From the NCBI GenBank assembly GCA_950295325.1, contig OX485804.1:29078001-29142000 (forward strand): a stretch of 64,000 nucleotides of DNA, in the 5' to 3' direction. The translations under genes were made by a program, and so were the position numbers. The notes under the pieces were generated by a model. The model did not search any database, was not told where the DNA came from, and worked only from the letters and a program-made list of their open reading frames with translations. Numbering within the stretch: the stretch's first letter is position 1; each line of letters opens with the position of its first letter. Of the stretch, positions 4,554 through 48,178 are shown one piece after another. This DNA is from Polytrichum commune. Lineage: Eukaryota > Streptophyta > Polytrichopsida > Polytrichales > Polytrichaceae.

Positions 4554-5480
4554 CAGTGATCGGGGAGATTTTTAGACATAAGGTAGAGGGTGCTTAAACC
4601 AACACTTTAAGCTATTGCACATACATATGGCTATGTGGTTGATATATAAAATATATATTCATATTAGCCTTTGGGCTAAACATAGGTATCAAGAAAGAAA
4701 AAAATATTTTTAGTCTCAATTGAATATTTGATGAATATTCAAAGTCAAAACTACTAGCTTCCTTATACCAATCCATAGGCCCCGTGTATGGCAACCTCGC
4801 GTATGATGAGGACCCCCACCTTCATTGCCTAGAACCAACACAACATAGCTGGGTACTAGACCCAAACTACATCAAAGCCCAAGTAGTAATGGTATGCAAA
4901 GCCACACGGCTACCTCCATGATCCCTCCCGGTTCGCTTGCAAAACCATCACCTTGCATCCCGGGAACCGACCCCCTTTGCACCCCGGGAAATGACCCTTT
5001 TGTGCTTTGTGGGCCTACCTCCTTGGCGTTGTGAATAGAATGACTAGAATAGGCATTGACAAGCCACCCTAATCCCACCTTGAACCAACCCGAGATAGAG
5101 TGGAGCCCGTTACATACCCTACATGAAGGTCATGGAGGCCGCTATGAGGTGGCACCACTAACGGCACCTAAAACCGTCACTTCGTGGGCCCAGACACTCC
5201 TACACCGCCGGGTACGGTTCAAGGTTGTAGAGTGTTGGCAATTGGGAGGCGTTTATAGGTGTTGGTTTTGGATGGGGTGTTGGTTTTAGCACCCTCTACC
5301 TTAATCAGTTGAGATCCTAGCGTTTGAAAGTCCAACCGGTTACATGTTGACATCCTTCGGTTTTCCTTTACTAAATCGGGTATATTCTATAGATTCCTCT
5401 AAAACAATCGGTAAGTTTATTGCAATCTTGAACTTCAACCGGTTCATTTGTAAATGGCTGCCGGATCTCCCTGATCATAG
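4554..5480 (+). mobile_element. R3 hAT-type MITE, split by R5
   Basis: Starts CAGTGATCGGGGAGATTTTT and ends near CTCCCTGATCATAG. R5 is inserted at the TAA of 'agacaTAAtcagttgag', leaving the rest of R3 intact (5304-5480). The flanking octamers gtgcatgg and gtacatgc agree at 6 of 8 positions, compatible with an eroded 8-bp hAT duplication. Confidence 0.8.
4581..5301 (+). mobile_element. R5 TA-target element, copy A
   Basis: A 721-bp element with inverted ends AGGTAGAGGGTGCTTAAACC and, at the right, 'ggttttagcaccctctacct', flanked by TA on both sides. Copies at 28126-28798 and 43159-46185 share the interior ('actttaagctattgcacata', 'cctacctccttgg'). Short frames inside are not conserved as protein. 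The TA or TWA target suggests mariner or PIF/Harbinger affinity. Confidence 0.85.
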
Positions 5481-7176
5481 GTACATGCATGAAATTTGCC
5501 CTTGAAATTTACCCATAATCAGAAAATTGTCGCCGAGGTCAAAGTCTGTACTTGCTAAAAGCACGACATGGTTCTGACATCTCATTTGCTAAAGAATAAG
5601 ATTGGTCTAGGATGACACCTTCTCCACAATGGCTGCAACCTCAATGACATGTGTGTTGGTCACTTAAAAGTGTTAGATTAGTGTCATGTTTGTGTGGAAA
5701 AAGAGCCATGTTTCCTTCTAGTGATGGGAGAAAGCTTGGTACATTGGTGTCAGGAGTTTGGTGCACATTGAGATAGCTCGTTTTGCAACGATTGTGTCGA
5801 AAATGATATGATCCACACTTGGTAGAAATGGCGCCCAACAAGGTGATTCTTCATCTAGAATTGTTACATAGATTGTGTTGTTTTCTTTTTTCCATATTTT
5901 TCTCTCCTTAAATAAATGAATAGCGACTTGGCGTTGAATGTGCACACACGAGCTTCTTGCATTCTTTTCTAGCATTCCACTTGGTTAAACTTTTATGATA
6001 CTTTCTTACCTCTCTAGGGTTTTGAGCAACGAAACAATCCTTTGATTGAAGGTTGCTCTTTTTCTTCTTCAAGGTTTGAACAAGGAAGATAGGTTTTCAC
6101 ATGAAAAACGTTTCTGGTAGATTTTGTGTCTTATGGATTGTCTTCCTTTTGAAGGATGTGGTTGTAGATTTGTGTTTCAAGATTATGCTTGTAATTGATT
6201 TTATTTAAGGCAAGACAAAATAGTTGCTCTTCAAGGTGGCTTATATGTCACTACTTCTCATACATGTATAGGTACGTACGAAGAACAATTGGATGTTGTA
6301 CAGAGTTACACACACACTTTCGTATGAGACTTATTGACTAGCCATGATTATGGGCTAGTTACCCAACAAAATGACATATTTAAGTGAATATGGACACAAT
6401 TTCAAAATTTGGACTTTTTGGTGGCTTCGATTCTATCGGCAGATCTCGGGGGGGCCACTCCCTTGTATATTTTGCATACACCTGCGATAATGACCTATTA
6501 AAATGGGGGCTATTTACCTATGAGAAAGGATTATAAGGGATGCTAATTTTTGAAATAATGGTAAATTGTTGTGATTATTTGCACCCTATTGGTAATTATA
6601 AATTCTTGGATGGTTGATTTTATGGTACCCTATATTACTTATGTGTAATTTTTTCCCCTAATTGCCCCCATTCCTTAAAGTGTATGATATAGTAGAATTC
6701 TCATTAGAAGCACGTGTATAGAGTAAGAGAAACAAACATTTACTAGGGTTTAGGGTTCAGGGTCACACTGAAGTCCGGGCAAAGCAAAACACTAAACAAT
6801 AACAACAAAAGATTGCAATTACATGTCATTAAGCAACACGAGCCAACGAATAAAAGTTGTGTTGGATAACACAGTTAGAAACCTTGAGGTCTTAGGGAAC
6901 ATGCCAACCACATGTGTCTCAAAGTCACATTTACAAGGTTTGCATAAGCCCTACAATTGATGCCTTGATCTTCCAATCCTACACATTGGAGGAAAATCCC
7001 ACGCCATGCAAGCAAAATCCACCTAAACTAGCTAGGCTACCATTTACACATGTGGGAGATATGAGGGTACTCGAACTGAAATGACTACTACAGATTTCAA
7101 GGTATACTAATGATCATTCAGCCTTTTTTCCAAATTATATCTCCACATGTGTGAGATAGTACAAATTTAGCAGGTT
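5481..7176. other. non-coding stretch
   Basis: AT-rich sequence with no recognisable gene. Overlapping minus-strand frames at 5641-5975 have no domain or conserved pattern that I can see. Confidence 0.4.
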
Positions 7177-7521
7177 TTATTTTTTATTTGAAATGAACTC
7201 ACTCAATGAGTTTGCATCTACCTCATCTAAGGTGTAGATTTTGCTAGTTGATTCATACACTAGAGACACAGTTGAGATAATAGCATCTACATCAACCCAC
7301 ACATAGTCACTCTCAACATACTTATATTTGTTGAGACCCGGCTGTTTTTTGAACCAATGGAGGTAAGCCATAGCAGTTGGGAAGAGCGTTTTCCTATTTC
7401 CGTTATGGAGTGCACGTTTCATCAAGTCAATGGGTTGCCAACAATTGCCCCATTTAGTAGCAACCTTCACCCTTATCTTTTGAACCCTTCCTATATAGAA
7501 CATGCCATATTTTGGTGGCAA
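7177..7521 (-). pseudogene. unrecognised ORF remnant, about 114 codons
   Basis: An open minus-strand frame of balanced composition, unlike the low-complexity frames around it. It has Trp-rich stretches (KWGNCWQP, YLHWFKKQPG) and an acidic patch (YVWVDVDAI ... LDEVDA). The first codon of the frame is TTG; the first ATG is at the seventh codon (GMFYIG), so a true start is uncertain. I do not recognise the family. It could be a decayed transposon protein or one exon of a split gene. No RNA signals or neighbours support expression. Confidence 0.3.
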
Positions 7522-8534
7522 AGTATTTAATTTTTGAAACTATCGCTTTTTCTCCATGCTATTTTATATGTACCACTTAGGTAATTTAATCATGTTTTGT
7601 CAAATGCTATATTACATATAATCATGTTTCACAATCCCAGAGCACCCTATACTACATCTAATAATTCTACAAATTTTACGCCAAATTTTTATACAAGACC
7701 CTATATTTTATCACACGTAGTTCCTACGTTTTTCGCCAATGCCCCCCCCGAGCGGCAGATACATCGATACACTACTAATATACTGAATTTTTATGGGAGA
7801 TATGTGAATTTTTAGTGATTACTTGAATGTTATGCCATGAAGATATGATGGAAAATCAACTATCTATTTTTTATGTTAAATCTATGTAAATAAATGTTGA
7901 ATAATGAAAATACAATCAAAGAAATTGCTATAATATGATCAAAATCAAGTTTGCATATTTTATTGGAGAATCTTACCATACAATCCTATCGTAGGATCCC
8001 ATGACAAAACTCAGCATATTGTAAATCCGGACTTGGACTCAATCCATTTTTACTTTAATGCCAATTCAAATAGTCTTATTAGTGTAGTCCACAATAATAA
8101 TATGGAGCCCACATAACTTCTCATTATTAGAATCAATTGTGGGCCATGTTAATAATCAATTGATGTTTGATGTCTAGTTAAAATTATTGTGGGCTACATC
8201 AATCATTCTTTCTAGAAGATTAATATGAGTGGACAATTTTTTTTGCTCCTTTTGATGTAAGGATCTTTTTTATTTTATTCAAGGCGTTCGTCGAAAGTCT
8301 CAAGGAAGATTGAGTGGAAGACCTGGGGTCCAAGACCCACATTTTTCCACCCTAACTAAATAATAAGAATGACCCACACTAATATGACTATTTAGTGTGA
8401 ATAGGATTAGGTAGAAATTAAAGTTAGTGTACCCTAAGTGCAACCCTTGACCACATGGAGTTTGGAATTGTTGTGTGGAGTTGCATACATGGTAATTCTT
8501 ACACTCAAGGGGAGTAAGAACATACAAATTTTAT
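7522..8534. other. non-coding stretch
   Basis: AT-rich. No convincing coding region or element ends. A C-run (7742-7748) and several oligo-A/T tracts are the only landmarks. Confidence 0.4.
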
Positions 8535-8910
8535 TGCATTTAGTGTCATATGGCATATTTTATGTCATTGTGGTAACTTTTCCAATGAATTTAAAAATAA
8601 AATAAAATATACAAATATCGTCATCCCAATGTACTTTTAGTTCATCCAAAAGCCAAGTATTGAAACCAAGTTTGGTATGTTCTGCATCCTAACATTTTGG
8701 TGATGAGATATTGTCATGTATGAATGAAATTTGGATGAAAAATAGCTTAGTAATTGACAGTAATTGCAACATTTGAATATGTAAAGTGCGAAAAAGTTTT
8801 ACAAGGAATGACAAATGCTGTTAGATTTACATTCCCTAGTGTTGATGACACTACATGGGCGGTTTACAATTAGTATTGAGCAAGAAACATAGAATTGGTG
8901 ACATTATAAC
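8535..8910 (+). mobile_element. R8 MITE-like repeat, copy 1
   Basis: Direct-orientation match to 62035-62390. Shared blocks include 'ttttatgtca', 'gacagtaattgcaaca', 'tttttacaaggaa(t/c)gacaaat', and 'caattagtattgagcaag' followed by 'aattggtgacat'. Ends near TTTAGTGTCA / GGTGACA, similar to R7 termini, so the two may be related. Non-coding. Confidence 0.6.
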
Positions 8911-8937
8911 AATATTCCAGGCCTTGGACAATTACCA

Positions 8938-9440
8938 AAATAACTATAGTTAACTAGGTTTTTTTCAAGACATTTTAGGGAACAACTATAGTTAACTAGA
9001 AAAATTTCAAACAACTACAACTTGAGAGTTCCAAAATTTGTAAGGAGCCAGCCGGCAAGGTCTTTCATTTATGAATGGAAATATATTACAATAACTTCTT
9101 TAAGAGTCCTTATGTTAGAAATAGTGCTTGTCACCCATCCCGGCCCATCCCAAGAAGGAATAGAACCCTCCGTTCCTTGCAACATTTGAACCCATTACAC
9201 TCTAGATTACTTAGAGATGATGAGGTCATGCTCATTGGGTGTTGATTGAGTGCGAGTCACAAAAAAAATCAGGTCCCAAATTTAAGGATCTGAATAAAAG
9301 AAAAAGAAAAAGATATAGATGCTATGATCTGTCATGGTACTACATTGCACACTACGCCCAACTGTAGTTAACTAGATATAACTATAGTTAACTAGATTTT
9401 TTGGAAGACTGAAATTAAAACAATTATAGTTAACTACATT
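8938..9440. repeat. cluster of AACTATAGTTAACTAG motifs
   Basis: The motif AACTATAGTTAACTAG or one-base variants recurs about six times, for example at 8942, 8984, 9360, 9378 and 9419, each followed by a T- or A-run such as gttttttt. The motif contains overlapping palindromes (AACTATAGTT and GTTAAC). Spacing is irregular, so it is not a simple tandem array. Confidence 0.6.
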
Positions 9441-10495
9441 TTTTGGCAAGTCAAATCACAAACAACTATAATTACAAAAGGCAACTAGTTCACTAATAGT
9501 TGAATTAGTTGGTTAGTTGTCCAAGGTTTGCAATATTTCGTGTATTGATTACCACCAAGTTACTACTATGTGGTGAAACGCATGAGTAAGTGTGCAATGT
9601 CAAGGAACATGTGTGATAGGATAAGAGTAGTGTCAACTTTTTATAGAGTAGCTAACTATTTGCTATTCATGGTTGATTAATGTCGCATGGAATTAAGTAC
9701 ATGGTAATTCTTATCTTCACTTGGGAGAATAAGAAGATATGAAAGAAACAATGATGAAGAGTAAGAATATCTTTCACTTGGGAGTAGGAATATATGAAGC
9801 AATTATGCATGGTTCAACGTGCTTGGTTCTTCATAATTGTAATGTCAATACGCATGGTTCTTTCATATATTCTTAAGGTTTTCTATTAGAGGATATTTTT
9901 TTGGTACTTAGATACTTGAGAATAGGTCCATCTATCTATAGTACCTAGTTAGGACTAGGTGTTACTTGTGGATGCATTTGAAATTGGTATGAGACATAAA
10001 GCAATTAGGGTATACTATAGAAACCCTAACATGAGGTTTCATGCCTTCTCTCTCCCTCACATTATTGGTTGTGTGAGGGGACCATTTTACAAAATGCTTG
10101 CAACCCTTTGAGAACTCCCGCCCACCTAAAGCATATCAATTGAAAGGAAACGGCCCTTAATTAGAGGATGTATTTGCATATAGAATAGGCTTTGCATATG
10201 TTCAATCAAGCCACCAACATGTATTAAAGCCAATTTTCATTTGGTTTATCATAATATCATTCAAGCTATGCTGATTGCTCTATTTCCAAAAATAAAATAG
10301 ACTGTCTTACACCATCTCCCACCATGTGTTGTTTCCTTGGTGCAAGGTAGTTGAATATTAGCCAAAAAATGAAACTTGTCAAGGATCCATTGAAAATTAA
10401 GGGGGGGGGGGACTTCCCCCCAACGCTTATTGTCCTACAAAGCTAGCAATACAAATTGAATAATATTACAATCATATTGAAGTTGCTATTACTTT
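9441..10495. other. non-coding stretch
   Basis: No gene seen. Contains a 10-base G run near 10402. Ordinary AT-rich sequence otherwise. Confidence 0.4.
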
Positions 10496-11620
10496 TTGCT
10501 CGACCCAACTCTCAACACAAGTTCCAAGCCTCACCTCCAGAATGTGTGGCCATGTAGGCACATGTGTCATACTTGGGACTTAAGAATTGGGACCCCGTGC
10601 GAGGTGGTAAGGTCCCAACTTCCATGCTCTCAACGGTTAAGATTGCATGGATTGACCTCAATCAAGGGACTTCAAACTTAGGATTTGAGACCCACGTGAA
10701 CCGACCCTAAGTTATTGTACTGATGGTTCCAACTCTCAACACAAGTCCCAAGCCTCAACTCCAAAATGTGTGACCATGTAGACATATATGTCATACTTGG
10801 GACTTAGGACTTGGGACTTGTGTGAAGTGGTAAAGTCCCAAGTTCCATGCTCTCAACGGCTGAGATTACACGGATTGACCTCAAGTGACTCCAGACTTAG
10901 GACTTGGGACCCGTGTGAGGTGGTGAAGTCCCAACTTCTATGCTCTCAACGGTTGAGATTGCACGGATTGACCTCAAGTGACTTCAGACTTAGGACTTGG
11001 GACCCGTGTGAAGTGGTAAAGCCCCAACTTCCATGCCCTCAACGGTTGAGATTGCACGGATCGACCTCAAGTGACTCCAGACTTAGGACTTGGGACCCGT
11101 GTAGAGTGGTAAAGCCCCAACTTCCATACCCTCAACGGCTGAGATTGCATGGATCCACCTCAAGTGACTCTAGACTTAGGACTTGGGACCCGTGTAGAGT
11201 GGTAAAGCCCCAACTTCCATGCTCTCAGCGGTTGAGATTGCACATATTGACCTCAAGTGACTCCATACTTAGGACTCGGGACCCGTGTGAAGTGGTGAAA
11301 TCCCAACTTCCATGCCCTCAACGGCTGAGATTGCACGGATCGACCTCAAGTGACTCCAGACTTAGGACTTGGGACCCGTGTAGAGTGGTAAAGCCCCAAC
11401 TTCCATACCCTCAACGGCTGAGATTGCACGGATCGACCTCAAGTGACTCCAGACTTAGGACTTGAAACCCGTGTAAAGTGGTAAAGCCCCAACTTCCATG
11501 CCCTCAACGGCTGAGATTGCACGGATTGACCTCAAGTGACTCCAGACTTAGGACTTGAGACGCACGTGAACCGCCCCAAAGTGAATTTCACTGATGGTTC
11601 CCACCGTCAAGCTGCTTGCA
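10496..11620 (+). repeat. 93-bp minisatellite with nested higher-order unit
   Basis: Between 10808 and 11551 the marker 'gacttggga' (or variant) falls exactly every 93 bp (10808, 10901, 10994, 11087, 11180, 11273, 11366, 11459, 11552), with no indel across eight units. Before the array, 10496-10730 carries a single-unit version with the same flanks: 'ctctcaacacaag' upstream and 'cacgtgaaccg' then 'tgatggttcc' downstream. Because 93 is divisible by 3, one plus-strand frame stays open for 225 codons (10788-11465) as a 31-residue repeat. I do not call it a gene: no homology, no flanking coding sequence, and neighbouring units differ by many non-silent changes. Confidence 0.85.
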
Positions 11621-12270
11621 TGGGGAGCCTACAACTTGTATGGGATAACATACTCACTCACAAATGCCACCCTCTATTCTTCGAGTTGCTCAAGTCCATT
11701 TCCAAAAAGTGGAATTATTAGTTATACAGATATTGGTATTGAGGAGACCTATTCAAACGGCATCGGGTTGAGTGATCGTTCCAGGAGATCGATCGGTTGG
11801 TGCACTCCCCAACGCTCTTGGGCCGGACACGTTGTATGCTTTCCCGAATCTCAATGATTCTTGAGACTTCAATTAATTAGTGTAGTAGATAAATTTGGCA
11901 GAATAGCTAGATTTAAACTGCACATGCGCCGATCGAGCCTGAATAAACACATGTGCGCTACATTACTGTACGTACGTGTGGGGGTCATAGTTCTCCTCAA
12001 TTGTGACGTCACTGGAAATAGTAATAAATGCTTCAAAGTGTGGGCGGGCTGGTTGAATCTTGAACAATTTGACCACCGCTGGGGGAGCTAGTAACATTAT
12101 CTCATGTCACATGGTCTCTCTAGATGATCTGCCAGAGCCATTGGTTAACTTAATGAAGTTGTTTAGGGTTGAGGCTTTAATTTAGTTGTCGGTGTTTTTG
12201 GGGTGCTGGCATGCATTTCGTGCCTCGCACCATTGTTGTGAAGGACATGTTGGATGCAGTGCCTGGGGAG
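11621..12270. other. non-coding stretch
   Basis: No gene recognised. Two overlapping plus-strand frames (11536-12091) have no visible domain. Confidence 0.4.
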
Positions 12271-12502
12271 CAGTGATCGGGGAGATTTTTGGGCATAATA
12301 ATCGGTTGAGATCCTTAGTGTTTGCAAGTCCAACCGGTTACATGTTGACATCCTCCGGTTTTCCTTTATTAAATTGGGGTATAATATTCCATAAATATCT
12401 CTAAAACGATTGGTAATTGTCCTGCAGTCTTGAACTTCAATCGGCTATTTCTCAAACTCTACCGGTTCATTTGTAACTAACTGCCGGTTCTCTCCGATCA
12501 TT
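12271..12502 (+). mobile_element. R3 hAT-type MITE, intact copy
   Basis: Runs from CAGTGATCGGGGAGATTTTT to 'ggttctctccgatcattg', giving inverted termini. Holds repeated CCGGTT or AACCGGTT motifs at about 12302, 12332, 12462 and 12484. Immediately followed by a second copy in the same orientation. Confidence 0.8.
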
Positions 12503-12737
12503 GCCGGGGAGTTTTTGGGCATACATAGTCAGTCAAGATCCTAGTGATTCTAAATCCAACTGGTTACATGTTGACATCGTCCGGTTTTGCTTTGTTCAGT
12601 TGAGGTATAGTCTTCTATAGATTGCTCTCAAATGTTCGGTAATTAATCCTCCTGAAGTCTCCAACTTCAACCGGCTATTTCTCAAACTCAACCGGTTCAT
12701 CTGTAACTAACCACCGGTTCGGTTGTCCCCGAGCAGT
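12503..12737 (+). mobile_element. R3 hAT-type MITE, tandem second copy
   Basis: Begins 'ccggggagtttttgggcata' and ends 'ggttgtccccgagcagtgg'. Head-to-tail with the copy before it. The first few bases of its left terminus are missing or merged at the junction. Confidence 0.75.
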
Positions 12738-12837
12738 GGATGGATCCGATTGTCGAGGAAAGTCGCCTTTGATTAATGGTTTGTAGTTTTGGTATCTGGG
12801 TAGTCTGTACTTTTTAGAGTTAGCCTTTAAATTCTCT

Positions 12838-12985
12838 CAAGAACTCATGGTTTGGTGGGGAGTGTTGGCCCACCTTTGATATTTTATAGCAATCAAGAAG
12901 TGTTCATAAAATCTCTCAATAAATAAAGGTTCGGTAAGGAGGTTTGGCCCACTTTTGATATTTCATAATGATCAAGAAGTGTTCA
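12838..12985 (+). repeat. two-copy tandem repeat, about 74 bp
   Basis: The blocks 'ttggcccac(c/t)tttgatatttyat' and 'atcaagaagtgttca' occur twice in direct tandem (first at 12866, second at 12945). No coding role seen. Confidence 0.6.
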
Positions 12986-18628: not shown

Positions 18629-18630
<2 letters not shown>

Positions 18631-27710: not shown

Positions 27711-28125
27711 TCAACTATGTACAATGTAGATACTTTCAAAATAGCAAACAAGTACATCGAAATTCATGTATCAAAATAAATAAAAAGAAGCGGGTTCTAT
27801 GGCACATGGTGTTAGGCTAATATGCAGTATAATATATTAACCACCAAAAAAGTGTGAAAACCACCATGTTCAATAGCACACGGCCCAAATGACAACACTT
27901 TAAAAATTGAGTGTACTAGATGTGCTCCAGGCTTTTACAGTAGCCTAAAAATGACCATAATGTGTAGAAGCTTTGTAATTGCTAATAATCGCAGTCAGCT
28001 AGTACGACAATCCTAATAGTCAAAGGAGGATGTTTTCCCTCCAAATGCAAGAACCTCATAAAAAGGCAGATCTTACCATCAACACACGAGTCATGCTTTA
28101 TTTTAGAGTATTATAAGGTAGAAGG

Positions 28126-28798
28126 TGCTTCAACCAACACTTTAAGCTATTGCACATACACATGGCTATGTGGTTGATATATAAAACATTTAATCATATT
28201 AACCTTTGGGCTAAACATAGGTATCAAGAAAGAAAAAATATTTTTAGTCTCAATTGAACAGTTGATGAATATTCAAAGTCAAAACTACTAGCTTCCTTAA
28301 ACCAATCCATAGGCCTCGTGTATGGCAACCTCGCGTATGATGAGGACCTCCACCTTCAATGCCTAGAACCAACACAACATAGTTGGGTACTAGACCCAAA
28401 CTACATCAAAGCCCAAGTAGTAATGGTACACAAAGCCACATGGCTCCCTTCATGATCCCACCCGGTTCGCTTGCAAATCCATCACCTTGCATCTTGGAAA
28501 CTGACCCCCTTGTATCCCAAGAAATGACCCTTTTGTGCTTTGTGGACCTACCTCCTTGGTGTTGTGAATAGAATGGCTAGAATAGGCATTGACAAGCCAC
28601 CCTAATCCCACCTTGTACCAACCTGAGATAGAGTGGAACATGTTACCTACCCTACATGAAGGTAGTAGAGGCTGCTATAAGGTGGCACAGACACTCCTAC
28701 ACCGCTAGGTACGGTTCAAGGTTGTAGAGTGTTGGCAACTGGGAGACATTTATAGGTGTTGGTTCTGGATGGGGTGTTGGTTTTAGCACATTCTAACT
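28126..28798 (+). mobile_element. R5 TA-target element, copy C
   Basis: Left end AGGTAGAAGGTGCTTCAACC and right end 'ggttttagcacattctaact', flanked by TA. The interior is nearly the same as 4581-5301 with small deletions near the right end. Unlike the other two R5 copies it is not inside R3. Confidence 0.85.
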
Positions 28799-31429: not shown

Positions 31430-31975
31430 ACATAATCATCGTCAAGGAGCACACAAAACATTTGAGTCATAGATGGATGTGATGTGATTGTGCAGTGAGC
31501 ACCTAGTGTACAGGATTTATTGTCACAGTAGGAGCATGTTGCATGCTCCATCAAGTAGAAATACACAAACAAAACTTTGCACCGTGGCCTTTCCTTCGCT
31601 ATGCAGCAGAGTCACTTCACTCTTTCAACACTCGCTACTGGTATACTGTCACAAATTGATGAATGGACTTTGAAGAAACTAGTGTCCGCACTCAAATGGG
31701 TGTACATTCTCAAAATTGTCCAAGGACTTTGACGGATTGTGCCAATACTACTCGAAAGAATTACATGGCATCCCATGGAGGGAGCTACTCACATTGCAAA
31801 ATGAGGAATCGAGCACCAATATGGTGACATTAATGGCACAAGCTGAGCGGAGAGAATCAGTCTTGGTATGTACAGGATACTCTTCTTGGGGTGTTGGGCA
31901 CGACGAAGATTCAGCTAGTTCCATCTTCGGAAGGGAGAATGTACATCAAAGAAATGAGCTTTCTTGCGATGATGG

Positions 31976-32344
31976 TCATCCTCGGCTGTGTTCCTCAGTG
32001 TGCCAGCTATCCTCGTCGCCCACATAAATTTTGACCTGGTTCCCATTCGCGTCGTACTCGATGATACCTGAGAACGAGAGAGGCTTGCAACGCCGGCCTT
32101 TGGGGATCGTCCGCTTCCAGATGGCAGAGTCCACTTGGTCGCAGCTATCCATGCCCTCCGCGTCCATCACATCCTGCGTCGACGAGCAGTCATCGCTACT
32201 CAATGTGCTCGCGCCGCTGCTACTGAAAGTCCCGGCGCTCGACCTGGGACTAGAGTTACCATATCCCTGCTGCTGCTGCTGCTCCACTTCTTCTTCGTCT
32301 TCTGGCGAAGTCACCCGCGGTCCACTGATTGCACACATCCCCAT
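31976..32344 (-). CDS. small acidic, Ser-rich protein of plant W-K-R/F-S-G type, 122 aa
   Basis: Intact frame from ATG at 32344 to TGA at 31976. The N-terminus MGMCAISG has Gly2 and Cys4, the arrangement seen in myristoylated and palmitoylated proteins. Then come an acidic stretch with five Gln (residues about 15-26), a Ser-rich disordered region (31-55), and a conserved C-terminal module: IWKRTIPKGRRC (about 75-86), PLSFSGIIEYD (88-98) and GNQVKIYVGDEDSW. I associate the W-K-R...G-x-x-C...F-S-G-x-I-x-Y-D pattern with small plant proteins of unknown function. The paralog at 59217-59570 differs by roughly a dozen substitutions, three length residues and the C-terminus. A GTG three codons upstream also keeps the frame open, but the paralog fixes the start at this ATG. 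No intron is needed. Function unknown; membrane association is inferred. Confidence 0.7.
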   Translation of the reverse strand: MGMCAISGPRVTSPEDEEEVEQQQQQGYGNSSPRSSAGTFSSSGASTLSSDDCSSTQDVMDAEGMDSCDQVDSAIWKRTIPKGRRCKPLSFSGIIEYDANGNQVKIYVGDEDSWHTEEHSRG

Positions 32345-32681
32345 TGTGATCACAACCCTCTCCCAACTCGCACCTCACCAAACCCACCCCAACACCTCGC
32401 CGAAATCTTAACAAACGGTTCCTTCAAACTCCCGCTTTCACCCACAACCCTCCCCACCGCACCCGCCTCACCAACCCGATCTCATACAAAACCCGATCAC
32501 AAAAAGCTGCAGACCAAACAAACTAATCTGCTTCCACCTTCACCTCCCGACCAGGAAACTCCGGCAAACACACAATCCAGTGTCGCACAGATGGGAATTA
32601 GGGGAGACTCTGGACGCGATGCAAGATGCAACGACAGCCTACTGCAGGGATTTCGGTGTTGGTAGAGGTCTTATAGCAATG

Positions 32682-32707
32682 TGTAGCACGCGCAAAGCGC
32701 AGACGGA
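32682..32707 (-). promoter_or_regulatory. conserved upstream block shared by both paralogs
   Basis: On the minus strand this reads CGTCTGCGCTTTGCGCGTGC followed by TACA, identical to 58850-58874. It lies about 340 bp upstream of the start codon in both segments. Conservation amid diverged flanks suggests a promoter or leader element; which one is unknown. Confidence 0.4.
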
Positions 32708-33015
32708 GGCGGGGCAAGAGGGGTCGGTGGGCGTTCCTTCCATAAGATATGATTAGGTCGAAGAATTGCCATCCCGCATAGCTAAGCTAGATGGCCCTGC
32801 AGCCAGCATGAGGCTCGTGCGACGCGATCTGAGCTAAAATTAAACCTCGCCCACACGCACCGGAGTGAACGGGCGTGGCAACAGCGCGGCGTTGAAATGA
32901 AGTGACTTTGCATGGCCTCAGTGCCGATGACGAGACGCAGACACCGACTTGGGCATCAATGCCGCGAGGGAGAATAATGCCGCGTTGGCAGGCCACGTGG
33001 GCGCAGGGCATTCGC

Positions 33016-33261: not shown

Positions 33262-33988
33262 AGGGCCACTTCACACACGAGACCAAGAGCCATGACCATG
33301 AAATTGTGAGAGCCCAAAAGAAAGTGTCCAAAGGCCGTCCCAACTCACCTCCAAACTCATGAGTGTGGTCACGGGCCCTCAAGTGTAGTGTGAAGTCATA
33401 TGTGACCGGGCTCTCAACCAAATGCTATTTCCATGCATTTATGTTCATGCAGGTCCTCACGCATGATAAAATAAAATAAATCAATGGTTGTGAGCGTTCA
33501 GAGTGCCATGGTCTCCCGGTTTTGTGGTGGGCCGACCTCTAAGAGGTGGTTTTTGAAAATAACCCAAGTGACTTGTGATCGGGGAGAACCAGCAGTTAGT
33601 TACAAATGAACCGGTTGAGATTGAGAAATAACCGGTTGAAGTTCAAGACTGCAGGAAAATTACCGATCATTTTGGAGGAATCTATAGAATATACCCCAGT
33701 TTAATAAAGGAAAACGTGAGGATGTCAACATGTAACCGGTTACACTTGCAAATGCTAGGATCTCAACCAGTTTTGCCCAAAAATCTCCCCGATCACTGCA
33801 AGTGACCATGAAATATGATCCATTTTGATGCCATGTAGGAATCCATGTAGACATTACATACATCTTGCCTTCACGTACTCCGTTGGTCCCTCAAGCGTAG
33901 TGTGAAGTGAACTTTGACCAGCTCCGCCTCTTCCACCAGTGAGAGTGCTTAGAGTGTATTGGTCATGGGCTCTTGGTCTCGTGTGTGA
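33262..33988 (+). mobile_element. R2 element, copy 5, split by R3
   Basis: Starts AGGGCCACTTCACACACGAG. Its right terminus is fused at 'gtgtgtga' to the next R2 copy, with the outer bases of both ends missing. An R3 MITE lies inside at 33573-33798. Confidence 0.8.
33573..33798 (-). mobile_element. R3 hAT-type MITE, best-defined copy
   Basis: A 226-bp element with inverted ends 'ttgtgatcggggagaacc' and 'aaatctccccgatcactg', flanked by CAAGTGAC at 33565-33572 and 33799-33806. The empty site exists in other R2 copies as 'gtccaagtgaccatg' (3717-3731 and 42411-42425), so insertion and an exact 8-bp duplication are seen directly. Subterminal AACCGGTT motifs are present. Confidence 0.95.
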
Positions 33989-35786: not shown

Positions 35787-35796
35787 GTTGGTAGGA

Positions 35797-37855: not shown

Positions 37856-38089
37856 CAGTGATCGGGGAAGTTTTTGGGCATACTAATCAGTTGATATCCT
37901 AGTGTTTGCAAGTCCAACCGGTTACATGTTGACATCCTTCGGTTTCCTTTATTAAATTGGGGTATATTCGTCTATAGATTCCTCTTAAATGATCGGTAAT
38001 TTTCCTGCAGTCTTGATGAACTTCAACCGCTTATTTCTCAAACTCAACCAGTTCATTTGTAACTAACTGCCGGTTCTCCCCGATCATTG
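37856..38089 (+). mobile_element. R3 hAT-type MITE, nearly intact
   Basis: Starts CAGTGATCGGGGAAGTTTTT and ends 'cggttctccccgatcattg', with clean inverted termini and all internal landmarks. The flanking octamers do not match, so the duplication has been lost or rearranged. Confidence 0.85.
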
Positions 38090-39199: not shown

Positions 39200-39202
<3 letters not shown>

Positions 39203-39232
<30 letters not shown>

Positions 39233-39241
39233 TACATATAA
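39203..39241 (+). repeat. (CATA)n(CA)n microsatellite
   Basis: A mixed tract of CATA then CA dinucleotides, then CATA again. Confidence 0.85.
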
Positions 39242-39835: not shown

Positions 39836-41465
39836 TCAGGGTAGGGTTGATTTTCAATCTTTTTTTGTATATGTTTCATCATAGATTTGCTAATCCAACA
39901 CAAGTGTAAATCTAATCAATAGAGTTTGGAGAACATGAAAAAAAAGAACCGAATTACACCCACAAACCTGAGCAAAAACTCAAGTTTGTCACCTAATTGT
40001 TACTTCATGTGGAACTTCAATTTGAAAATCTAGTGTTTGGCATAGCTTTAAGATAGACATGTCTAAATCCAACATAGAAATAATACGAACACCTACATTT
40101 AAGTGTAACATGGTTAGGTGTGGTTCTAACAATGAATTTAAAAAAAAACATGTGTTTAAAGAAGATTGGACTATGTGCTCATACACTAACCATTCTAAGT
40201 TCAATAGTTAAGATGATCAAGGAAACCTATATGACCACTTAATGAGCATGAAAATCTTTCACTTTGATAATGAATAATATAATCATATGAGCCCCAAATT
40301 ATTATATAACAAATTGCTACATGCATGGTTTAGATTTGTTAATCATCTCACACTTATTGTGTATTTCCTAGCCTACAAGAAGTGGGTGCAAAGAGGAAAG
40401 AATTCAATTAACACACATCTACCTTAACCCTTGATGTCCTATGTGAACATGATATGGTCATGACTAGTTCACTTTGACACCAATTCGGATGGTTTTTGGA
40501 TTGTTTCAACTACTCTTGTTGCTCATGTTTAGGTTTGCTATGTCCTGTCATGTGGATAATTTTGATTCAACAAGTATGTCTATTTTTGGATAAAGTCAAA
40601 CATGGGAGTGTCCTCTCAACTAGTTTACAATGGAACCGCTCCATGAATGCTTGCTCGACATTTGTCACCTTGGTGGTTTAGGGCAGCATATCCTAAACAT
40701 GCTTTTGCTATTGATCCCTATGTGCAAATGATTCCCAATTGTTATGAAAATTTGCATGACACTCAAACGCAACATATCTTAAACACCTAGTGTTTGAAAT
40801 TTAATTGGACATGTGTTGGTGGGTGTCAATCCATGTGGTAGGTGCGCAATTGTGGCATTGTTGCCTCAAATTGCAAATATTCATAAAATATTGGCTTCAA
40901 GATTTGTGAGTTGATTTGAGTAGGTATATTTCCCCTCTTATGAATGATGATAACATGATGTCATTTGGAGATAATCCGAGTGGGGGTTCGATCAACAAAC
41001 CAACCCCAATTTAAGTTCTAAATTGCTACCCCTCAAGACCACTATTGACATTCCTACTATAATCTCCTACATAACAAAACTTTAACGTTTAAAAATTGGA
41101 TTGTGAGTATTCACCTCTAATTACCAAACATCTATACAATTGAATTCGTCAAAAAAACTATAAATCTCCAGCTACGGTCGCTGAAATTGAGGTCACATTA
41201 TCTAGACAGATTTGAGGAAAGTCAGGGGTTAACCTCCTTTGAGATAAAATTCTAAGAAAAGGCAATAAAATACAGTGGTTTGACTCCCATGTAGAATCTT
41301 CAAATCAAATTGCAGCTGAAAACCAAGCCGGGAATTTGGCATCAACTCATGAACTACCAACCATTAGGTAAGCTAGCCTGCATAGAAGTTACAAATCTAC
41401 ATAATAAATTAGAGAGTATACTTAAAAAAATCTACGTAGAGTGTTAACCTCATGGGCCCATATAG
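39836..41465. other. non-coding stretch
   Basis: No gene recognised, though it lies directly downstream of a minus-strand gene remnant and could include its 3-prime flank. Confidence 0.4.
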
Positions 41466-41974
41466 TTATACTTTTGGAGGTATGCTTTGAGGAAAGTTGA
41501 ACACATTTTGGGGATCCCACATGTTTTTGGTTGTGACGAGAGCATCGAAGTTGCGCCCATAGTACACACGAAGAGGCATGTCCTGATTGATGTAGTTATG
41601 GTAGGCTTCGGGCGTTGCATATAGTCCACCCACACTTACTGAACCAGGCCACCAGTGAACGGTTCCTATCAGCAAGGGTCATATTTAAAGTTGGTTTAGC
41701 AAGTGAGAGCCACTGGATGTAACCAATGTTGGTACTCACCATTCACTGGTGGCCCGCACCAATAAGCGTGGGCATGCTAATACTTACACATGACACTCCA
41801 ATAGTCATCAATGAACGAGGTTTCTCGAGTACACATATCAATGGTGTTCACATTTGAGTAGGTCACCATCTGAATGCTTAAAAACGAGTTGCGGTGGCAA
41901 AACGCGGTGGTGTCACAAGCCACTTTGTTGATGTTGGATTGTGAACCGTAGAGGTCATATATAAAAGTATGCGC
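41466..41974 (-). pseudogene. BBE-like FAD oxidoreductase, C-terminal remnant (two exons)
   Basis: Berberine-bridge-enzyme-like proteins are secreted flavin oxidases acting on alkaloids, monolignols or oligosaccharides. The C-terminal BBE domain is readable. The upstream exon (41974-41788) gives FIYDLYGSQSNINKVA, then TAFCHRNSFLSIQMVTYS and DDYWSVM. It ends at a good donor, GTAAGTA (41787-41781). The last exon (about 41638-41466) gives EAYHNYINQDMPLRVYYG, NFDALVTTK and WDPQNVFNFPQSIPP before a TAA, matching the family's AYxNYxD...YYGxNFxxLVxxK...DPxNxFxxPQSIPP ending. The intervening sequence is mostly an R6 MITE (41629-41772). No N-terminal FAD-binding domain is found, and an R2 element begins 125 bp upstream, so this is a truncated gene. 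An intact parent elsewhere is likely. Confidence 0.8.
41629..41772. mobile_element. R6 MITE, copy 1, in BBE-like remnant
   Basis: A 144-bp element with long inverted termini: left CCCACACTTACTG...CCACCAGTGAACGG, right 'ccattcactggtggcc' ... 'aataagcgtggg'. The copy at 46466-46609 has exactly the same length. It lies at the edge of the last exon and its right arm reads into the coding frame. Confidence 0.85.
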
Positions 41975-41977
41975 TCA

Positions 41978-42014
41978 TATTGTTGTTGTTGTTGTTGTCG
42001 TCGTCGTCGTCGTA
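41978..42014 (+). repeat. (TTG)n(TCG)n trinucleotide repeat
   Basis: A run of GTT units passing directly into GTC units. Confidence 0.85.
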
Positions 42015-42098
42015 TGAATGGATGGCATGGCCATGGCAGTGATGCCCGTGTCTAAGAGCCCGGGAGTGTTCCCATAGATGGACTTGGCTTTGAATATG

Positions 42099-42612
42099 AG
42101 GGTCACTTCACACACGAACCAAGAGCCGTGACCATGAAATTGTGAGAGCCCAAAAGAAAGTGTCCAAAGGGCCATCCAAACACACCTCCAAAATCATGTA
42201 GTGTGCTCACAAATCCTCAAGTATAGTGTGAAGTCATATGTGACCGGGACACTCAACCAGATGTTATATTTCAATAAAATTTCTATTCATGCAAGTCCTC
42301 ACACATGATAAAATAGAATAAATTAAACCAACAGTTGTGAGCGTTTGGAGTGCCATATTCTCCTGGATTTGTCTTAGGCCTACCTCCAAGAGGTGGTTTT
42401 TGAAAATAGTCCAAGTGACCATGAAACATGATCCATTCGATGCCATGTAGGAATCCATGTAGACTTTACATCCATCTTGCATTCACATACTCCGTTGGTC
42501 CCTCAAGCATAGTGTGAAGTAGCGATCTTGGACCGGCTCCGCCGTTTCCACCAATGAGAGTGCTTGAAATGTAATAGTCGCGGGCTCTCAGTCTCGTGTG
42601 TGAAGTGGCCCT
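42099..42612 (+). mobile_element. R2 element, copy 8
   Basis: A 514-bp copy with left end AGGGTCACTTCACACACGAA and right end 'tcgtgtgtgaagtggccct'. Closest to 3412-3920. Provides an empty-site reference for the R3 insertion at 33573. Confidence 0.85.
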
Positions 42613-42973
42613 AAGGGGGGGAACAATATGTGGTTGTTGAGGACAATATTGGGGTTGGTGGATGCATCATAGCCCCAGGACAAGCAACTTGTGCCAATGT
42701 TTTCAATTTTTTTTCAATTTTTTTTAAAAAAAGGTGGCCATATAAACCAAACCGTGGGAATATTATTTTTAGCACTTCTTTCACCCTGTTAACAACTTTC
42801 TGGTCTTGTACAAATTTTTGATAGAGCCACCTTGACCACATGCTAGGTAGGAAGACTGGATATTAACTTACATTGACATGTATCCATGGTGAGCCTGTGT
42901 GGTGCCGCATCGGACATTAAAAGGTTTGAGAAAAGGTTTGACAGATTCGACTTCCTTCCCAAGTAGGCCCCCT
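42613..42973. other. non-coding stretch
   Basis: Starts with a G-run and includes an oligo-T/A tract at 42707-42731. No gene. Confidence 0.4.
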
Positions 42974-43158
42974 CAGGGCTCAAGGAGTACGGGCGGTTAC
43001 TTACATATGAACTGGTTGAAATTGGAGACTTCAAGAGAATTATCGATTGTTTTCGAGGAATCTATACAAGAGTATTCCTCAAATGAATGAAAGCAAAACC
43101 GGAACATGTCGACATGTAACCAGATGGGATTTAAAATCACTAGGATCTTGACTGACTA

Positions 43159-46100
43159 AGGTAGGGGGTGCTTAAACCAACACTTTAAGCTATTGCACAT
43201 ACATATGGCTATGTGGTTGAATTATAAAATATATATTCATATTAGCCTTTGGGCTAAACATAGGTATCAAGAAAGGAAATAGATTTTTGGTCTCAATTGA
43301 ATGTTTGATGAATATTCAAAGTCAAAACTACTAGCTTCTTTAGAAGCAATCCACAGGTCCCATGTATGGCAACCTCGCATATGATGAGGACCCCCACCTT
43401 TATTGCCTAGAACCAACACAACATTGTTGGGCACTAGACCGAAATTACATCAAAGTCCAAGTAGTAACGGTACGCAAAGCCACACGGCTACCTCCATGAT
43501 CCCACCCAATTTGCTTGCAAAACCATCACCTTGCATCCCGGGAACCGACCGTTTTGTGCTTGGTGTCGAGGTCACCTTCAAACCCCCAGCAAACTTAGAC
43601 GGTGTAACCCGCTGCTGACCGGTTTACATGGACACTACACTTATCTAAATTAACTTTTGAAGGTGTTTCCTCTTGGATAAATCTCTAAGGAGAAAGTAGC
43701 CTAAGCTTTCAAGCTTATGTTCCCCGAAATCCTAATGTTGAGGTTAAGTGTTATGAATGAAGAGAGTGCTCTTTTGTAATCAATAACAACATTCTTCCAT
43801 TCATTTATAAATCCTCAACCAAAGTTCACAATCACATTACTTTGAGAGTTTTCATTTAACAATTTATTGCAATGCCTTCAAAGTGGAAGTTGACTACTTG
43901 ATGGTCTTTAATTTCTTCTTTTCTCGAATGATGGCTTTGAAATCCTCTTAATGTCTTCATTCTTCTAAAGTTCCCTTTTGTCTGGTTTTCCTTTGTATTC
44001 TCTACTCATGAGAGTTTAGTTCTTCATTCTTGAATATCTCTAAATTCCTAGGAAGGATCTTCTCTAATCTTCCTATTCTCTTGAGTGCTTTGGTCTTGGA
44101 TTCCTTACGCAATCTTCTTTGTCTTCACGATGAGCTTCGGATTTTGTCAATCTCTTAGCATCTTCACTTTTGATATCTTGACATCTCCTTAGACCCAAAA
44201 GGTATCTTAGATCTTGGTTAGAAAGTTCGTTTAAACCTTTAGTCCTCAAAAGGGCTTCAAACTTGCGGTCTTAGTCTCGGGCTTGCGGTCCTCTGGTCCC
44301 GAGGGCCCTCAGTCTCCCTGAATTGAAAAAAAAAAGCTTTTAATGTCTTCAAGTCTTTTCTTGTAGTACTGGATTTCGTAAACTCTTGAAAAGACCTTCA
44401 AATCCTAAAGTCCTCTCGGCCTCTGGTACCGTGGTCCTTCAGTCGCGCGGGCCCTCAGATTTTAAGACCGGCGTCGCGCCTCCGCGATTCTTCGAACTCG
44501 TTTGTTGCGGATCTTAATTTAAAGACCGGCTCCGATCAATTCCCTGGACCTTCGGTCTCGTGGGCCTTCAAGGTCGCGGGCCTTCAGCAACTTGGGCTCC
44601 CAGTTTCCCAAACTTTAGTCTTCTTACTCAAAACCGTCCATCTTTAAATATCTTCAAGTATCTCTAAGTCTTCGTCTTCGTCTACGCAGTCTCGCGGTCA
44701 CTCAGCCGCGGGCCTCCAGTCTTCGCGGCTCTCGGCTCTCGGCTACCAACTGGTCCTTATACTCGAAGTCTTTCGACTTCGAGTACCTTCAAAATATCTC
44801 GGAATCTTTGATCGTCGTTCTCGCGTTTCGTGGTCTCGCGGGCCCTCAAGGACACGAGCTTTCGACTTGAAGATCGAAGAAGACGAACTTGCGGACCTTT
44901 AAGCAAGGCCGGCTTCGTTCGATGTTGCGGACCTTTAATCAAGGCCGGCTTCGATGACGCTCACGTAGGAATGTTGGAAATGAATAATGAGGTGCTATAG
45001 GGGTCCGTAGTGCCCCTTTATATAGGTTTTGAAATCTTAAAATTGGTTGAATTAGCGGTTAGGTGTGGCCCCCTAATGCCAAATGTCTAAATAGGCTAAT
45101 TTTAGTCTGAATTAGGGCTGCAGTCTAAATTTAGGTCTACCGGATCTATTTACAGTAACCGCACGTGTTAAATATAGATGTTCTTGTGAGGTGGATTGTT
45201 TAAAGTTCTTCTTCCTTCCTAGATGTGCCTAGGTGTGTTCGGTTACCATCCATGAGTCATTCATTCACAATTTCATCCTTCATTGCTAGATGGTCAAGGC
45301 GGTTAATGTCATCCAAGGGATTTTCATCCCTTGGCTTGGTCCTTCACCCACATCCCTTTGAGTGTTAACTAAATGTTCACTAACGTAACTAGGTTGCTAA
45401 CTCTAGTAACTAATGCCCTTTACTTATCATCCAAAATGGCAACCACGTTACTCCTTAATCATTACGAGAACTTAAACCTATCCTACGAATGTGTACATCC
45501 GTTCCCCATGGTTGATGCTCGTTCCCAACGGTGTCTTGTCCGTTCCCGCCGGCCTCGCCATCGTTCCCGCCGTCTAAGTACGTTCCCGGGTCACCTCCGT
45601 TTCCGGCCACGTGGCCGACGCCCGTTGGTCCACCTCCCATTTAAGGTTCAGTGCCGCTTCGTCATCCCCCCAGTCCCGGTCGTCTCCTCTCCCAGTTACC
45701 CGGGTCTTGACCTGTCTCCTTGCCCTGCTTACTGCCTCCTACCGCAGATACCCGGCACCCGGTCCTAGCTCCCGTTCGCTTCCGATTCCTCGTCTCCGAC
45801 GCTCTCTCTCTCTCTCTCTCTCTCCTAAGTCCTCTGTGTTCGCAGCTAACGGCCATCACCGAATCTCTTGCTGCCGCAGGGGTGTACACTTGGTGGGCCT
45901 ACCTCCTTGGCGTTGTGAATAAAATGACTCGAATAGGCACTGACAAGCCACCCTAATCCCACCTTGAACCAACCCGAGATAGAGTGAAGCCCATTACCTA
46001 CCCTACATGAAGGTAGTGGAGGCTGCTATGAGGTGGCACCACTAATGACACCTAAAACCATCACTCCAGGGGCCCAAACACTCCTACACCGTTGGGTATA

Positions 46101-46185
46101 GTTCAAGGTTGTAGAGTGCTAGCAACTAGGAGGCATTTATAGGTGTTGATTTTGGATGGGGTGTTGGTTTAAACACCCTCTACCT
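43159..46185 (+). mobile_element. R5 TA-target element, copy B, split by LTR
   Basis: Left end AGGTAGGGGGTGCTTAAACC and right end 'ttaaacaccctctacct', flanked by TA. Without the 2.3-kb insert its length is about 700 bp, like the other two copies. The join ('gcttggtg' to 'ggcctacctccttgg') matches the uninterrupted R5. Confidence 0.9.
43564..45888 (-). mobile_element. large solo LTR (2325 bp) inside R5
   Basis: Begins TGTCGAGGTCACC and ends GGGGTGTACA (TG...CA), flanked by CTTGG at 43559-43563 and 45889-45893, a typical 5-bp LTR-element duplication. No coding domain inside. A minus-strand TATATAAAGGGGCAC (about 45023-45009) looks like the promoter TATA box, so the LTR probably reads minus. 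It holds GC-rich repeated phrases ('cgcgggccctcag', a duplicated 'aaggccggcttcg') and a (CT)n tract at 45801-45824. The open frames at 44757-45956 are shadows within it. Confidence 0.8.
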
Positions 46186-46211
46186 TATGCCCAAACGCTT
46201 CCCGGGCACTT

Positions 46212-46465
46212 CCCGACCCCCTCGAGCCCGAGAGGTAAATGTTGAAAGAGGCAGGTATGTCCGAGGGAACATTCAGTACCCGCTTTTGGAAAGCCTTGAG
46301 ATTTCGAAACTCCAAGCCCGTGTTGTTCTAGAAGTATCTAAAGTGGGTCACCGGGAAAGGCACATCGTGCACTCGGAAAGTGAAGCATGTCACAAATCAT
46401 GCGAGTGAACGTTCCATAAACTATGTGTAAATATGATGTTGGTCATGGATGCCGTTCATAGCATG
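46212..46465. other. short spacer, no gene recognised
   Basis: The frame at 46187-46408 starts inside R3. The rest (GKV-type, basic) shows no domain that I recognise. Confidence 0.35.
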
Positions 46466-46609
46466 CCCACACTTATTGGCGTGGGTGACCAGTGAATGGC
46501 TCCTACCAACAGAGGCCGTTTTTAATTCCAATTCGGCCAGTGAGAACCACTGGAGGTGACCGGTGTTGGTAGAACCTGTTCATTGGTGGGTCCCACCAGT
46601 AGGTGTGGG
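46466..46609. mobile_element. R6 MITE, copy 2
   Basis: 144 bp with inverted ends CCCACACTTATTGG...ACCAGTGAATGG and 'ttcattggtgggtcccacc' ... 'aggtgtggg'. Same length as 41629-41772. Confidence 0.85.
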
Positions 46610-46904
46610 TGGGCTTGGGATTGTCACCTTGCCAACTATCCAAAGTGCATATAATAATAGCCCTAGCCTCTAGCCAAACCCATGAGTGATGTTTGAGTTG
46701 CTTTGTCATAGGTCGGTTGTGTGAAACCACTCATGTCCACGACTAGCACCCCATCTCGACCACCTGCCATAGCACTCTTGAGCATGTGTAAGAACGTTCC
46801 CTTTCTATTCTAGCTTTAAGAATATAATCTCAGTATTCCTACTCTCCTTGCATACATACATAAGGTATGTGGATCTTCTTGGTTGCTTTTCTTAGTTGGA
46901 CGCT

Positions 46905-47100
46905 TGTATCTGATTGGTGTGTGGTTAGGTGAGGATCAACAAACAAACAACATAAAAGTCACATGTTTAAAAGAGATTAGACTACGTTTTCAAAATTCAT
47001 TAACTACACCACACTCAGTAATTGGAAAGAAATAAAAATAAATGGGAGGGCCTACGTATGTAATCAACGAATCAACAAATATGCAATTCTGGTAACCGTA
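46905..47100 (+). repeat. R10 dispersed repeat, copy 2
   Basis: See 39635-39835 for shared blocks. Confidence 0.6.
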
Positions 47101-47496
47101 GTAACTAAATATGACACACCCGAGTCTTTTTGTTTTTTTATTCCCTCATTCTTGCACATGCACTCTTCTTGAAGCATGTTGTCCCAAAAACCTAGCCATT
47201 GGCTGGCACGCTTATGATTTATGCTCGATCATATGTGCTCAATATTCAAATGACGATGCCGGAATTCGAAAGCTCCCCTACTTTTTGCAAAACCCGGTTC
47301 TTCACCTAGCAGTATGGAAACCCAAAAAACAACCTCCTAGAATGAACTCCCCATGCAAAGTGAACCCAACCTGTAGAGCTGTTGGCGATCATGTATGTTC
47401 AGGTGTCACTTTGATTTGATTACCCTCGCCCTAACTTAGCCGTTTGCAATCCACATTGTCTCCTCCACTTCTGTGAATCCAAAGATGTTGGATCTA
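47101..47496. other. non-coding stretch
   Basis: A plus-strand frame (47111-47419) has no recognisable domain. Confidence 0.35.
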
Positions 47497-47984
47497 AAGC
47501 GTCCAGGGAGATTGTGGGGCATGCATAAGAGCATCCTCAGCCCATTCTCTGTACTCGCTCCCGGCAGCCCCATTTGCAAGGAGCCCTGCGAATGGGAGGG
47601 CGGAAGAGGCGGGAGGGGGGTCCAGCCCTGCGCCCGGCAAGCGCCCCCGGCACACAGTTGACCTTGCCACGCAGGCAGGCAGGTCGGAGCGGGCAGCCAG
47701 GTGGATCCTGGGTTTAGCAGATAGGGTTCTCTGCCAGTACAGTAGCGGGAGGACAAATTCTCACGTCAAACTCGAAAAAAGTGCCGAGAGCGGGAGTACT
47801 TTTGACGGGACCCGCTCCATAACGGGACGGGTAGCGAGGCCGTTGGCCCGAACCCCGGGCTCACTAATCCCGGCAGTTACCGTTGCCGAGAGAACGGGTC
47901 GTCCGACTGAGGATGCTCCAATAGCTCAAAATCCGAGTGTTTTCCAAGTCCAGCCGCTTACATCTTGTGACCTTCCCATCTTCT

Positions 47985-48041
<57 letters not shown>

Positions 48042-48178
48042 TTTTTGAGGTGTATATATCCACAGATTGCTGTAAGAATGATCAGTTGTTTACTTGGATT
48101 CTTGAACTTTAGACAGTTGTTTCTCAAACTCAACCAGTTCGTCGATCTGTGACTAGCAACCAGTTCTTCCCGGGATTG
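47497..48178 (+). mobile_element. R3 hAT-type MITE split by a Tourist-like element
   Basis: Left part 'gtccagggagattgtggggc' to TAA at 47528. After the insert it resumes 'tagctcaaaatccgagtgtt', 'cttacatcttgtgacct', 'tttctcaaactcaaccagtt' and ends 'cttcccgggattg'. Its centre is expanded by (TA)n(T)n at about 47988-48046. Confidence 0.7.
47529..47918. mobile_element. Tourist-like (PIF/Harbinger) MITE, GC-rich
   Basis: A 390-bp element with perfect 12-bp inverted ends GAGCATCCTCAG / CTGAGGATGCTC, flanked by TAA (left) and CAA (right), a probable eroded 3-bp duplication. Markedly more GC-rich than surrounding DNA. Frames on either strand across it (47436-47756 and 47473-47661) are not genes. Confidence 0.75.

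Follow-up and report, generated by a model that had tools for sequence, protein, structure and literature searches.

Why should three members of one repeat family, lying within a single stretch of moss genome, all be broken at the same base step by other transposons? The question arises from 64,000 nucleotides of Polytrichum commune DNA (hereafter the window: assembly GCA_950295325.1, contig OX485804.1, positions 29,078,001 to 29,142,000, or G000:C2:29078001-29142000 in a genome of 408 Mb and 64 contigs), where the first-pass annotation had described three copies of a short repeat, R3, as interrupted at one identical point. All three breaks do align to the TA at positions 26-27 of the R3 consensus, which we call site 26 and which is one of 14 TA sites in that consensus, the annotation having been right that other TA sites exist in R3. 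The explanation we favor, at a probability of roughly 60%, is that site 26, just inside the left end of R3 and within a subterminal motif, would be a favored target for TA-targeting elements, at which two kinds of guest have inserted independently and several times: an element termed R5, which makes a TA duplication, and Tourist-like elements of the PIF/Harbinger type, which make a TAA duplication. Some of these TA-targeting elements probably excised again and left short TA-n-TA footprints, and the footprint-carrying R3 copies would then have been amplified further. Because R3 is interrupted widely, site 26 is a preference and not a strict or exclusive hot spot.

R3 is a high-copy element with a consensus of 226 bp (flank trimmed by eye) that begins CAGTGATCGGGGAGA... 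and ends ...TCTCCCCGATCATTG, the right end likewise having been trimmed by eye. The consensus has short terminal inverted repeats with a CAGTG-like start, and ends of the CAGTG type are a mark of hAT elements. Among 80 copies fetched from the genome, the 8-bp target duplications matched at all eight positions in 33, at seven or more in 48, and at six or more in 57. By its ends and its 8-bp duplications, R3 classifies as a hAT-type miniature inverted-repeat transposable element (MITE), in agreement with the earlier annotation, the hAT transposase that mobilizes it being putative. The window holds nine R3 copies and one short fragment. One of these copies (12271-12503) sits inside the left end of a second R3 (region 12271-12720), where the duplication, C(T/C)GGGGAG, derives from the terminal repeat of the host R3 itself; further cases of R3 nested in R3 were met at two other loci (L068 and L079).

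Each of the three interrupted copies in the window preserves the structure of its insertion (Table 1). R3 copy 1 contains an R5 in the same orientation as R3, flanked on both sides by TA. R3 copy 2 contains an R5 in the opposite orientation, with junctions that read GGGCATA / R5 / TAGTCAG on the R3 strand; this R5 spans 43159-46185 in two pieces. The 2.3-kb insert that separates the pieces takes the place of ~32 bp of R5, and no clear long terminal or inverted repeats were found at its ends. In R3 copy 3 the guest is a GC-rich Tourist-like element with ends GAGCATCCTCAG / CTGAGGATGCTC, whose target duplication is intact as TAA at 47526-47528 and altered to CAA at 47919-47921; the four extra bases ahead of it (GGGGCATGCATAA) were already in the R3 copy when it inserted. 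The identity of the three guests and the opposite orientations of the two R5s are thus as the first-pass annotation had them. The post-hoc chance that three of three breaks fall at one of 14 TA sites is ~1/196, a figure that ignores how the case came to be chosen by its reader.

R5 is a 721-bp element with inverted ends of ~25 bp, and TA flanks 50 of 51 full copies at either end. The canonical Stowaway terminal repeat is of the CTCCCTCC type, whereas R5 starts with AGGTAGAGGGTGCTTAAACC and does not show that end. From these features, R5 appears to behave as a TA-targeting, Tc1/mariner-like element with a putative transposase, and we do not class it as Stowaway. The lone R5 outside R3 that had been annotated in the window is present, but it starts at 28116 rather than 28126. 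As for the Tourist-like guests, a pattern joining the Tourist end to site 26 had a single further match (L141), in which an AT-rich element with a body unlike that of the GC-rich one in the window carries the same ends, GAGCATCCTCAG/CTGAGGATGCTC, and has TAA on both sides; the enclosing R3 has the duplication CATCCATG. Inverted ends and a 3-bp TAA/TTA duplication, the features of Tourist-like and PIF/Harbinger elements, are therefore seen both in L141 and in the window copy (TAA / altered CAA).

Across the genome, R5 occupies site 26 in five R3 copies (window copies 1 and 2, L007, L127, and L136) and a second TA, site 169, in two more (L135 and L157). A 28-base pattern in which the R5 end is joined to the right side of site 26 was found at four places with ≤3 mismatches, three being R5 at site 26 and the fourth the left junction of a site-169 R5. 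L136 came from a mixed query, for which 40 of 5119 candidates were scored, and window copy 2 was read directly. An equally long junction pattern for site 65 was found at 0 places genome-wide, while the site-169 pattern was found at three. These were L135, already known, L157, where R5 was confirmed, and C6:14660447 (L158), which had no R5 body and is uncounted. The junction pattern GGGCATAAGGTAGAGGGTGCT (≤2 mismatches) occurred at 104 places, and 18 of the 20 stretches fetched came from the 100 matches listed; L127, one of the 18, turned out to be R5 in R3, and an exact match at C7:17409389 (L121) proved to be neither an R5 body nor R3. A number of R5-like ends with no R5 body next to them also occur.

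The R5 insertions in R3 are independent events, as the first-pass annotation had held, because their orientations, outside flanks, and R5 identities all differ from what an amplified unit would give. Among the site-26 cases, window copy 1 and L136 have R5 in the orientation of R3, and L007, L127, and window copy 2 have it reversed; of the two at site 169, L135 has the same orientation as R3 and L157 the opposite. The seven R5s inside R3 are 81.6-98.7% identical to one another and about equally close to R5s outside R3. When ten outside copies were included, the nearest relative was an outside R5 for four of the seven and window copy 1 for the other three, by ≤0.2 points or in a tie. The host flanks beyond R3 also differ between the nested cases. 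On these grounds the possibility raised with the annotation, that one nested unit had simply been amplified, is rejected.

Site 26 also varies among R3 copies that carry no guest. Exact anchors flanking the site were present in 750 R3 copies; the clean length between them is 9 bases, and 112 of the 750 exceeded it. Among 100 of these 112 that were listed, 51 had strict TA-n-TA additions of six types (TAC 41, TAA 4, TACGG 3, TAAGT 1, TACTAC 1, and TAGTC 1), and 19 more had TGCA or TTCA. At site 65, which served as a control, 68 of 743 copies were longer and only five (four types; list read by eye) were strict TA-n-TA, the commonest additions there being CAT and TTG, which resemble slippage. Counted by copies, which are not independent of each other, the difference in strict additions between sites 26 and 65 has a Fisher probability of 6e-11. 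Some R3 copies have undergone two successive events at site 26 (TGCTAAGTTAA and CACTAAGTTAA), and the Tourist-like insert in the already lengthened R3 copy 3 is a further double event. From these forms we infer both that the short additions were produced by excision and what elements were excised. Elsewhere in R3, a footprint-like TA-GG-TA (CCTAGGTAGTG) was noticed at site 42 of one copy (L165).

Two sets of results pull against this account, the first concerning the short additions and the second the preference itself. As to the additions, 41 of the 51 strict footprints are of one type, TAC, and by types the contrast between sites 26 and 65 shrinks to six versus four. The TAC copies moreover carry a 3-base addition at 106-116 more often than clean copies do (9 of 19, versus 1 of 24), a block in which a 3-base variant is common among the fetched R3 copies; because of this linkage, part of the TAC copies share one source. 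Additions of ≥3 bases were present in the fetched copies at site 26 in 7 of 39 unselected copies (one of the seven, TTCATAA, derives from the inner nested copy of L068), at site 65 in 9 of 70, and at site 169 in 7 of 65; for other positions the figures were 4 of 76 at site 42, 1 of 57 at 197-202, 0 of 58 at 93-97, 0 of 63 at 125, and 0 of 58 at 137. By this loose measure, which takes in additions of every sort, sites 65 and 169 come close to site 26. A tree was built from 73 R3 copies, five of them from the window and the other 68 from the 80 fetched, after a cut on identity and length; only 2 of 70 inner branches were starred, a resolution too poor to count origins, and as a test of single footprint origins it neither shows nor excludes them; the "clean" label given in it to L068, which holds three nested R3 pieces, is wrong. 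A less likely alternative to excision footprints is that the TA-n-TA additions are old R3 subfamily variants or products of replication slippage. TAATAA and CATCATAA could arise as tandem duplications, slippage-type additions such as CAT and TTG near site 65 are frequent elsewhere, and a second 3-base variant is common to the TAC copies. However, TAC, TACGG, TAAGT, TAGTC, and TGCA/TTCA do not copy the adjacent bases, and the same AGT addition stands between two TAs at both site 26 and site 65.

The second set of results concerns whether there is any preference at all, given that R3 is abundant and dense in the window, that MITEs cluster, and that three cases in one window could reflect luck together with selective noticing. 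In an R5-centered sample, 1 of 33 copies lay inside R3, at site 26, and 0 of 18 further R5-centered copies did. A small census of 20 R3 copies, present in the site-65-anchored list and absent from the site-26-anchored one, had a large insert at site 26 in 0 of 20; two of them (L174 and L179) had footprint-like additions there and one (L168) had no recognizable left arm. Of the 80 fetched R3 copies, which had been chosen with site 26 unbroken, 60 gave a single near-full match, whereas the other 20 include breaks at many positions, some of them nested R3, and, as noted above, additions are not rare at site 65 or site 169 either. One of the five R5s counted at site 26 is also less secure than the rest: the R3 around L136 has diverged, and since the R3 match begins 25 bp away from the end of R5, the site rests on spacing and a left-arm remnant. 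The specific R5 patterns covered sites 26, 65, and 169, three of the 14 TA sites. On the other side stands the number of R5s at this one TA. Given 1223 first-look R5 candidates, 4394 first-look R3 candidates, and a TA frequency assumed to be 0.065 (the window has 0.070), one would expect 0.2 R5 per R3 TA site, and the probability of five or more is 2e-6; with an assumed 15,000 R3 copies the expectation rises to 0.7 and the probability to 7e-4. The first-look counts are rough, and the R3 copy number, hence the expectation, is uncertain. Clustering of MITEs would lift every R3 TA site equally, yet two more R5s are at site 169 and none at site 65, and a second Tourist-like element has inserted at the very same TAA. 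We consider the absence of any site preference unlikely, and the annotation's view of R3 as a preferred target holds in so far as five R5s at site 26 exceed the 0.2-0.7 expected, but not in any exclusive sense, since other positions are interrupted as well. At one such position, site 42, an R5-like end (AGGTAGAGAGG) follows the TA of a copy reading CTAGCTA (L048), a possible double event. Two further copies (L067 and L116) both break at consensus position 202 and continue into related CACTAAA...CAGTG-like sequence, which is either a second reused site or the end of an R3 subfamily.

If site 26 is preferred, its surroundings may indicate why. The consensus contains the motif TAA(C/T)CGGTTGA in forward orientation at 26-36 and inverted at 160-170, with sites 26 and 169 each at the end of one of these copies, while site 65 has a variant of the motif with a GG end instead of GA. 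Beside the insert, the 11 motif bases show no differences in L007 and L135, one in window copy 1 and L141, and two in L157, but the motif is degraded in the remaining four of the nine insert-bearing copies (three differences in L127, four in window copy 2, five in the window Tourist copy, and seven in L136), which adds to the evidence against the preference; these four are diverged R3 copies, and it is their present-day sequence that was compared. The suggestion that transposases recognize GGGCATAACC is therefore at best half right, as TAA(C/T)CGGTTGA is common to sites 26 and 169 but GGGCA is absent at 169 and the motif is 3-7 of 11 bases off in those four copies. Nor does R5 have a general taste for GGGCATAACC. 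The profile of 49 R5 targets outside R3 is weak and palindromic, A-N-C-TA-G-N-T, and by this profile site 26 ranks 10th of the 14 R3 TA sites, which removes R5's own sequence taste as a cause. By DNA deformability, calculated from step values, site 65 ranks first and site 26 second; as the site-65 pattern had no R5 match, this property does not tell the two apart. The other proposal in the first-pass annotation, that nesting in dispensable DNA is favored, does not on its own predict one position. We favor a local effect, of sequence or of occupancy, close to the hAT end, in which the motif, DNA shape, or protein occupancy could each play a part, and the motif is a candidate cause of the preference, not a shown one.

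Subterminal repeats bind hAT transposases in other hAT elements. A tentative and rather unlikely extension of our favored explanation is that a hAT MITE has in its subterminal region, perhaps by way of a motif that a hAT transposase would bind, a landing pad that attracts TA- and TAA-cutting transposases of unrelated superfamilies. Were this true, one MITE family would serve as a mobile trap that can be used again and again and in which insertion scars are gained, lost, and spread. Still less probable is that a TA-targeting transposase attacks an extruded R3 hairpin in which TA 26-27 is paired with 169-170. In the predicted single-strand DNA fold (z -3.29) this is the sole pairing of TA with TA among the 14 sites, and R5 insertions are present at both partners; however, insertion into a stem should mark both arms, a single R5 per R3 is seen, and sites 26 and 169 share sequence anyway. 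Least credible is that the nested R3 and R5 units descend from one or two events co-amplified by hAT machinery, as R3 copies with short additions probably were (the 41 TAC-type copies and their 3-base-variant linkage), a view already largely refuted by the flanks and R5 identities described above and opposed as well by the two R5 orientations at site 26 and by the different bodies of the two Tourist-like inserts. Whatever the cause of its preference, R3 provides, in thousands of near-identical copies, a natural replicate experiment on target choice, with a 226-bp target and counts for each position, and guidance of insertion by local sequence, DNA shape, or bound proteins becomes directly testable with it.

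The remaining features of the window include inverted copies of a ~970-bp segment at 31780-32731 and 58825-59770 (82% identity). An open frame at 50937-51371 has a PsaA/PsaB match over 32 residues (E 4.6e-6) and is probably plastid DNA moved to the nucleus, so short a match being thin evidence. Another open frame, at 10782-11465, consists of a repeated LRTWDPCEVVKSQ-like unit and is a tandem DNA repeat.

Table 1. Positions within the window of R3 copies, their guests, and related features.
Feature	Position	Strand
R3 copy 1, left arm, target TA at its end	4554..4580	+
R5 in R3 copy 1, 721 bp, terminal inverted repeat AGGTAGAGGGTGCT..., TA duplication, orientation as R3	4581..5301	+
R3 copy 1, right arm, second TA at its start	5302..5480	+
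Footprint-like TAATAA in an uninterrupted R3 (site 26)	12296..12301	+
Footprint-like TACATA in an uninterrupted R3 (site 26)	12522..12527	+
R5 copy outside R3, TA-flanked	28116..28798	+
R3 copy, clean length at site 26, 8-bp duplication GTCACTTG in flanks	33570..33801	-
Footprint-like TACTAA in an uninterrupted R3 (site 26)	37881..37886	+
R3 copy 2, right arm, outer end approximate	42974..43158	-
R5 in R3 copy 2, part one (R5 1-392), orientation opposite to R3	43159..43550	+
Unrelated insert within the R5 of R3 copy 2	43551..45888	.
R5 in R3 copy 2, part two (R5 425-721)	45889..46185	+
R3 copy 2, left-arm remnant, second TA at its start	46186..46212	-
R3 copy 3, left arm, end GGGGCATGCATAA (four extra bases, then TAA)	47497..47528	+
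Tourist-like element, terminal inverted repeat GAGCATCCTCAG, at TAA of R3 copy 3	47529..47918	.
R3 copy 3, right arm, CAA start (altered TAA), TA/T microsatellite expansion inside	47919..48178	+

Reuse of one TA by MITEs, with footprints, has already been published. In the Triticeae beta-amylase study (PMC1925063), recurrent Stowaway insertion and excision at one TA of an intron is described, with several footprints and an insertion at a site bearing an older footprint. R3 resembles that intron in that MITEs were repeatedly gained, and in R3 probably also lost, at one and the same TA, in the distinct footprints, and in re-insertion at a footprint site. The two systems differ in that the Triticeae case is one orthologous intron locus followed across species, whereas R3 offers one position of a dispersed MITE family within one genome, and in that site 26 is used by at least two kinds of guest. 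According to Jiang and Wessler (2001), as cited in PMC1925063 and PMC3695323, MITEs occur more often inside MITEs and sometimes at specific sites; here, however, the host is a hAT-type MITE, and one of the guests is a TA-duplicating element without the canonical Stowaway end. For carrot and its DcSto MITEs, PMC3695323 reports two different elements at exactly one position in different variants of a region, as well as a Tourist-like MITE nested in a Stowaway-like MITE, with TA and TTA duplications. The families there are other ones, and the position that the carrot elements have in common is a genomic locus, not a MITE consensus position. Set against these accounts, R3 is a clear and testable example of site reuse and not a new phenomenon; what sets it apart is that the host is a hAT-type MITE present in thousands of copies, that one base step has received two kinds of guest, and that the situation is replicated within a single genome.

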